This document shows, piece by piece, positions 40,425 to 41,645 of a stretch of 51,569 bases of DNA; the stretch's first letter is position 1; the number at the start of each line of letters is the position of its first letter. Below the pieces are notes generated by a model. That model made no database searches and was not told the DNA's origin. It saw nothing but the letters and a program-made list of their open reading frames with translations. This stretch comes from Actinomycetes bacterium (GTDB taxonomy: Bacteria; Actinomycetota; CALGFH01). A program made the translations under genes and the position numbers. The stretch lies in contig DASYUT010000267.1 of the NCBI GenBank assembly GCA_036000965.1, positions 1-51,569 on the forward strand, read 5' to 3'.

Positions 40425-41216
40425 CTACCCCTCCCCTCGGCCACGGGCTTCCACGATCCGCTCGGTCGCCGCCCGCAGATCGTCGTCGCTTACGCGCTGG
40501 TACCCCTCGGCGGTCACCGTGGCCACGATCGGGAAGATCCCCCGGATCAGGTCGGGGCCTCCGGTGCCGGCGTCCTCGTCGGCCGCGTCGTACAGCGCCT
40601 CGACGAGCACGTCCACGGCGCTGGCACGGTCCATGTCGTGGCGGTAGCGTTTCTTCAGACTGCCGCGTGCGTCCTTGCCGCCCGAGCCGTTGGCGTGGTA
40701 GTCGGTGTCCTCGTAGCGGCCGCCGGTGACGTCGTAGCGGAAGATCCGCCCGGTCTCCTTGCGCTGGTCGTAGCCGGAGAACAGGGGCACGACAACCAGG
40801 CCCTGCATGGCCAGGGGCAGGTTGGTGCGCACCATCTGGCCCAGCTTGTTGGCCTTGCCCTCGAGCGAGAGGGTCAGGCCCTCGACCTTCTCGTAGTGCT
40901 CCAGCTCGGTCTGGAACAGGCGCACCATCTCGATCGCGGGCCCGGCCGCCCCGGCGATCGCCACCGCCGAGTAGTCGTCGGCCGGGAACACCTTCTCGAT
41001 GTCGCGCTGGGCGATCGAGAGCCCCTCGGTGGCGCGCCGGTCCCCGCCGATGACCACCCCGTCGGTGTACCGGAGCGCGGCCACCGTGGTCGCGTGCGGC
41101 ACCTCCGTCAGCGGCCCGCCGAGCGCCGGCGGCGCGAGCAGCTCGGGCGCGTACGACCGCAACGCGTCGATGAACGACGGGCTGAACAGCGCCGGGCCGT
41201 TCAGTGGGTCCCTCAC
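40425..41216 (-). CDS. prcB: 20S proteasome beta subunit, catalytic
   Basis: A 42-residue propeptide ends at PHA, and the mature enzyme starts at Thr43 (TTVAALRYTDGVVIGGDRRAT), the N-terminal nucleophile formed by self-cleavage. The catalytic Lys lies in RDIEKVF and the Ser/Asp helpers in the C-terminal half (GRYEDTDYHANGSGG). It degrades proteins threaded by ARC. The GTG start is preceded by AAGGGAG. It follows the endonuclease-VII-like ORF after 31 bases in the dop-pup-prcBA order. Confidence 0.96.
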   Translation of the reverse strand: MRDPLNGPALFSPSFIDALRSYAPELLAPPALGGPLTEVPHATTVAALRYTDGVVIGGDRRATEGLSIAQRDIEKVFPADDYSAVAIAGAAGPAIEMVRLFQTELEHYEKVEGLTLSLEGKANKLGQMVRTNLPLAMQGLVVVPLFSGYDQRKETGRIFRYDVTGGRYEDTDYHANGSGGKDARGSLKKRYRHDMDRASAVDVLVEALYDAADEDAGTGGPDLIRGIFPIVATVTAEGYQRVSDDDLRAATERIVEARGRGEG

Positions 41217-41247
41217 CAGACTCCCTTCGTAAGCTTCGTCAGGTTGA

Positions 41248-41436
41248 TCAGGCTGTCGCGGCTGCTAAGGTAAACGACGGCACGGGCAGCCATTCGGGGT
41301 TGTCGTTGAACTGTCCCAAGCCGCCGTTGCACCCGAAGCAGAGAACGCCCCGGACCTCACCCGATTCATAAGTGTTTTTGTTCCTGGGAAATTCTTCGGG
41401 AGGCTTCTTCTTGCTACAATTGGGGCACCGCTTCAT
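41248..41436 (-). CDS. Shrunken endonuclease-VII-like zinc protein between pup and prcB
   Basis: 62 residues: CPNCSKKKPPEEFPRNK at the start and EVRGVLCFGCNGGLGQFNDN toward the end. These match the two ends of the endonuclease-VII-like (His-Me finger) proteins found in actinobacterial proteasome loci. In full-length forms roughly 50-60 residues with a second Cys pair and the catalytic HVDHDH-type motif lie between them; here they are absent and the two ends are directly joined. The remaining four Cys could still bind zinc, but nuclease activity is not expected. Its ATG overlaps the pup stop (ATGA). Codon use is A/T-rich relative to neighbours. Confidence 0.7.
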   Translation of the reverse strand: MKRCPNCSKKKPPEEFPRNKNTYESGEVRGVLCFGCNGGLGQFNDNPEWLPVPSFTLAAATA

Positions 41437-41645
41437 TGGCCCCCTTTCTGCACATATTGCTTCACGAATTCTTCTGCATTTTCTTCTAGAACGTCGTCAA
41501 TTTCATCGAGGAGGGCGTCCAGTTCTTCCTTGAGCTCCTCGCCCTTCTCGGTGACGTCGGCAGACGCTTGGACGTCGTCGGTGTCGGCGTCCTGCTTGCC
41601 CGCGGCGCGGCGCTTCTGCTCGGCGCCGCCGCTGTCCTTCGCCAT
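41433..41645 (-). CDS. pup: Prokaryotic ubiquitin-like protein Pup
   Basis: 70 residues, hydrophilic and disordered-looking, with the helical ARC-binding segment GEELKEELDALLDEIDDVLEENAEEF and the end VKQYVQKGGQ. The terminal Gln means Dop must deamidate it before PafA can ligate it. ATG has GAGGAGG five bases upstream. Codons of the 3' third (from about 41536 downward) are A/T-ending far more often than in neighbouring genes. Confidence 0.97.
   Translation of the reverse strand: MAKDSGGAEQKRRAAGKQDADTDDVQASADVTEKGEELKEELDALLDEIDDVLEENAEEFVKQYVQKGGQ

Follow-up and report, generated by a model that had tools for sequence, protein, structure and literature searches.

Probable remnant of an endonuclease VII-like gene between pup and prcB in an actinobacterial genome

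What is the small gene between pup and prcB in this genome: a reduced zinc protein kept by selection, or what is left of a larger gene? In the window, that is, the whole stretch of 51,569 nucleotides that was analysed, a 62-codon open reading frame (ORF) lies directly behind pup:

41433..41645, minus strand: pup (PF05639, 84.7 bits)
41440..41447, minus strand: Shine-Dalgarno-like AAAGGGGG in the pup terminus, upstream of the ATG of the ORF (seen in the sequence; putative role)
41248..41436, minus strand: the 62-codon ORF with a PF02945 match, a probable remnant of a pup-linked endonuclease VII-like gene
40425..41216, minus strand: prcB (proteasome beta subunit), the next gene (ORF list and profile match)

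The ORF matches Endonuclease_7 (PF02945) with 36.5 bits, the curated cut-off being 23.6. Its ATG shares four nucleotides with the pup stop codon as ATGA, an overlap that an earlier note on this DNA had described and that the sequence bears out for a 62-residue product on the minus strand. No stop has arisen in the 62 codons, and the frame remains open until 32 bases short of prcB. The source of the Shine-Dalgarno-like AAAGGGGG is the KGG codons of pup; the conserved pup terminus KGGQ/KGGE encodes such a purine run and may aid translation of any gene landing behind pup. The same genome (G000) contains two more Endonuclease_7 matches, C300:1992-2171 and C315:13632-13790 (L001, L003).

A profile was made from 20 full-length endonuclease genes of other pup loci; the full-length protein has an N-terminal zinc ribbon and a C-terminal DHxH. 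The ORF matches this profile in two pieces, positions 14-37 and 106-133, with positions 38-105 missing. The two matches (1.6e-7 and 1.5e-12 in a nine-fragment search) are not chance, and the earlier description of the ORF as an internally deleted relative of the pup-linked endonuclease-VII-like protein is thereby confirmed. At the junction, residue 22 of the ORF (36 in the stop-to-stop frame) is followed directly by residue 23 (37):

41371..41436, minus strand: N-terminal piece still present (first CxxC of the zinc ribbon, EEFPRNKNT), 22.4 bits, where full-length genes average 18.2 (leave-one-out)
41370..41371, minus strand: deletion junction; 68 codons of the full-length gene gone, frame kept across the junction (profile and alignment)
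41296..41370, minus strand: C-terminal core piece still present (YESGEVRGVLCFGCNGGLGQFNDNP), 37.8 bits, where full-length genes average 43.4

When the ORF is aligned with full-length homologues, 68 consecutive residues are lacking, and in the alignment with one of them, L020, 68 columns are absent. (L020, CAMDCC010000337.1, is labelled as a Bifidobacterium breve MAG and has a pup-endonuclease-prcB locus; the contig is probably wrongly binned.) The lost residues are the second half of the N-terminal zinc ribbon, the CxIC pair of the core and the DHDH motif, and the catalytic D-H-x-H of Endonuclease_7 is missing from the ORF. The N-terminal KRCPxC...EEFPRNKNT and the final VRGVLCFGCNGGLGQF are both kept; that the final block survives while the middle with the catalytic segment is gone had been noticed before, and both the profile and the L020 alignment agree with it. 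All four Cys (C4, C7, C33, C36) are kept in the ORF. The four-Cys core zinc site is incomplete: only the second core pair is present, and the other Cys pair derives from the zinc ribbon. The pair earlier called the first zinc Cys pair is thus present as stated, but it belongs to the N-terminal zinc ribbon, the CxIC of the EndoVII core itself being deleted.

In full-length proteins, a helix ending ...RAxxYL comes after the QF.D.P block. In the window, the conserved C-terminal helix runs on after QFNDNP in register but in another frame (RMAARAVVYLSS), so that the ORF carries two lesions, the second a frame shift:

41290..41299, minus strand: one-base frame shift within a run of four C / GAATGG, exact base undefined (sequence and profile)
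41213..41293, minus strand: out-of-frame remnant of the C-terminal helix (MAARAVVYLSSRDSLINLTKLTKGVW), its stop overlapping the prcB start as GTGA (sequence and helix profile)

The in-frame tail PVPSFTLAAATA is unrelated to the helix, scoring -10.7 bits on a helix profile versus +4.8 bits for the out-of-frame helix; intact genes reach 16 to 31 bits on the same profile. Among dinucleotide shuffles, 23 of 20,000 attained 4.8 bits (best of three frames), a figure that is a guide and not a blind test, as the helix had been recognised by eye before the shuffles were run. The TGA of the shifted frame, which overlaps the prcB GTG (GTGA), may be read as the ancestral end of the gene; the full-length gene of L019 has 4-nt overlaps at both ends, GTGA with pup and ATGA with prcB. 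The earlier statement that the frame is preserved holds across the deletion junction but not to the end, where the helix is out of frame at 41213-41293.

Three genomes represent the class. In the two class relatives (G001 and G002), prcB comes directly after pup with no gene between them, and in G002 the two genes overlap. No other copy of the 62-codon short form was found in the three class genomes or in one profile scan of genome contigs, which returned full-length relatives only. No paper on a pup-linked endonuclease gene was found in the open-access literature.

Elsewhere in the phylum, the full-length pup-linked gene is an optional gene between two conserved genes. In a sample of 297 genomes of the phylum, pup is present in 126, and an Endonuclease_7 match lies directly behind it in about 21 of these, the window's own included (the coordinates of the two kinds of match were compared by eye). 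Several phylum loci have the endonuclease in tandem behind pup; more than one copy, whole or partial, is present at L023, L024, L026, L027, L028, L031 and L032. A script sorted 88 Streptomyces pup loci into 27 intact (whole motif in one long frame), 1 partial, 59 degraded and 1 absent. The degraded class is a wide one: it takes in both L034 and L090, nearly full-length genes in which zinc Cys are replaced, and several of the shortest gaps, where no motif can be recognised. What still matches is split over two or more frames at 26 of 59 non-intact loci. The intact copies keep DHxH, and their median dN/dS of 0.32 (333 pairs, dS below 1.5) argues that they are under purifying selection. Endonuclease and prcB distances correlate weakly (0.20), as either noise or transfer would produce. 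Phage relatives of the intact protein are many (1,919 records).

The endonuclease gene is also accompanied by a change in its neighbour. At loci that have it, the final ~24 pup codons show synonymous recoding and a higher AT content, a pattern clearest in Streptomyces, in family f56 and in the window:

41436..41507, minus strand: last 24 pup codons, recoded (codon comparison with class relatives)

In the window, 15-16 of 23 shared-residue codons in this stretch differ from those of the class relatives, versus 6-7 of 24 upstream and 22-25% in prcB, and the protein sequence is nearly unchanged. The scope of the recoding is 41436-41507 in the window and loci L021-L040, L081-L160 and L163-L211, with a step near codon -24 in Streptomyces and the window. 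A comparison of GC3 at the pup end set loci that have the gene against loci that lack it, using partly overlapping sets. Over the last 16 codons in the phylum sample, it is 0.65 with the gene (21 loci, including the window and some degraded Streptomyces copies) versus 0.89 without (42 loci), the preceding 25 codons being equal. The Streptomyces values over the last 16 codons are 0.65 for intact and 0.83 for degraded loci, and the last 24 codons differ between intact and shortest-gap loci with a p of 4.6e-7 that ignores relatedness. For the last 24 codons in f56, GC3 is 0.66 with the gene (7 loci) versus 0.89 without (21 loci; p 2e-4 using 18 of the 21, again ignoring relatedness); families f2 and f11 show the same direction with small numbers and smaller differences. 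With regard to co-conversion of the flank, a partial Mantel comparison of the recoded tract with the endonuclease gave 0.14 (p 0.026), but family-specific pup residues are kept alongside the recoding.

The recoding could stem from selection for a start region of the downstream gene, from local mutation following repair, from co-conversion or from escape from cleavage. The evidence disfavours a pup end brought in from another family: the window shares KQY with its class relatives, and in f56 RGY stands whether or not the gene is there; a donor inside the family is still compatible. A single cleavage site was also considered and set aside: a terminal 20-base stretch of pup shows the most consistent change in both groups, but its margin in Streptomyces is small, a stretch near -97 tying with it on the minimum.

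Taking these observations together, we consider it quite probable that the ORF is what recently remained of an endonuclease VII-like (HNH/beta-beta-alpha-metal) gene, which had no promoter of its own and shared four nucleotides with pup on one side and with prcB on the other. It has lost 68 codons, and with them half of the zinc ribbon, the first Cys pair of the core and the catalytic DHDH, and a one-base shift has left its C-terminal helix out of frame. The ORF may still be translated by coupling to pup, and its product, devoid of catalytic residues, most likely has no selected role. The loss appears recent, because the retained pieces are undecayed and the pup recoding is still strong. As for the intact gene, it most likely encodes an endonuclease that is dispensable, perhaps of homing type, and that has repeatedly been lost at the pup locus. 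Some points count against a remnant: the retained pieces score about as in full-length genes with four Cys kept, which recent loss or selection would both give; the 62 codons have acquired no stop; the shuffle figure was obtained post hoc; and the frame shift, lying in a short run of C in a draft assembly, may be an error in the sequence.

The earlier note had left the choice between a neutral remnant and a mini-zinc protein open. The remnant is favoured: a second lesion shifts the frame, the two class relatives lack the gene, and elsewhere decay at this locus is widespread. A selected mini-zinc protein, in which C4, C7, C33 and C36 from two zinc sites make one new site in 62 residues co-translated with Pup, would account for the retention of both Cys pairs, for their spacing of 29 residues (25 in the native core site of L019) and for the open frame, ATGA overlap and Shine-Dalgarno-like sequence. 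We nevertheless judge it unlikely: the frame shift cost the conserved helix, these searches yielded no second example, the class relatives have no gene here at all, and a single-sequence structure model of the product shows no fold with confidence (pLDDT 47), although a model made from one sequence tells us little.

The same overlap with pup, and a frame open until shortly before prcB, would suit a translated spacer whose product is irrelevant and whose translation keeps ribosomes coupled from pup to prcB. This is very unlikely, as the frame shift took the stop away from the prcB start, giving weaker coupling than the ancestral frame would have given, and in G002 pup and prcB overlap directly. 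That the real gene is full-length and the lesions are assembly or sequencing artefacts seems highly improbable; the genome is a draft of 358 contigs and the frame shift sits at a C run, but a clean 204-base deletion with the frame kept is unusual for short-read error, and the region is single-copy in its genome apart from one 54-base match (78%).

The broken gene is in itself ordinary. The wider pattern is that of an optional nuclease gene behind pup, often present and often decayed, with the pup end recoded where the nuclease is intact. One possible, if doubtful, account is that pup-linked EndoVII-like genes are chromosomal free-standing homing-type endonucleases targeting the 3' end of pup, the recoded end escaping cleavage or recording repair; the window would then capture the locus just after inactivation, with the recoding still in place.

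Among solved structures, the best match of the full-length pup-linked protein (of L019/L025) is Hpy99I (7.9e-7), followed by T4 endonuclease VII (gp49; 1.4e-5). Unlike these PF02945 proteins, the window ORF has neither the catalytic residues nor half of the core zinc site. T4 Seg/Mob proteins are free-standing homing endonucleases encoded as cassettes between conserved genes, several of them promoter-less, with effects on the flank (PMC2988022). The pup-linked endonuclease gene is similarly a promoter-less cassette between conserved genes with its flanking sequence affected, but the nuclease families are different, and co-conversion is experimental for Seg/Mob whereas here there is a recoded flank only. 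F-CphI is a free-standing EndoVII-motif homing endonuclease adjoining psbA in a cyanophage (PMC6083498). Like F-CphI, the pup-linked gene adjoins a conserved gene, and its full-length product carries the EndoVII motif C-terminally, like the endonuclease clade of that study; unlike F-CphI, it is a putative homing gene on a bacterial chromosome, at the pup locus and with no intron. This F-CphI-like layout, together with the many phage relatives, makes a homing-type lifestyle plausible, and the recoded pup end would fit, without proving, a homing-type endonuclease resembling F-CphI. Should the nuclease cut pup that is not recoded, the locus would hold a homing-type element inside a bacterial proteasome operon.
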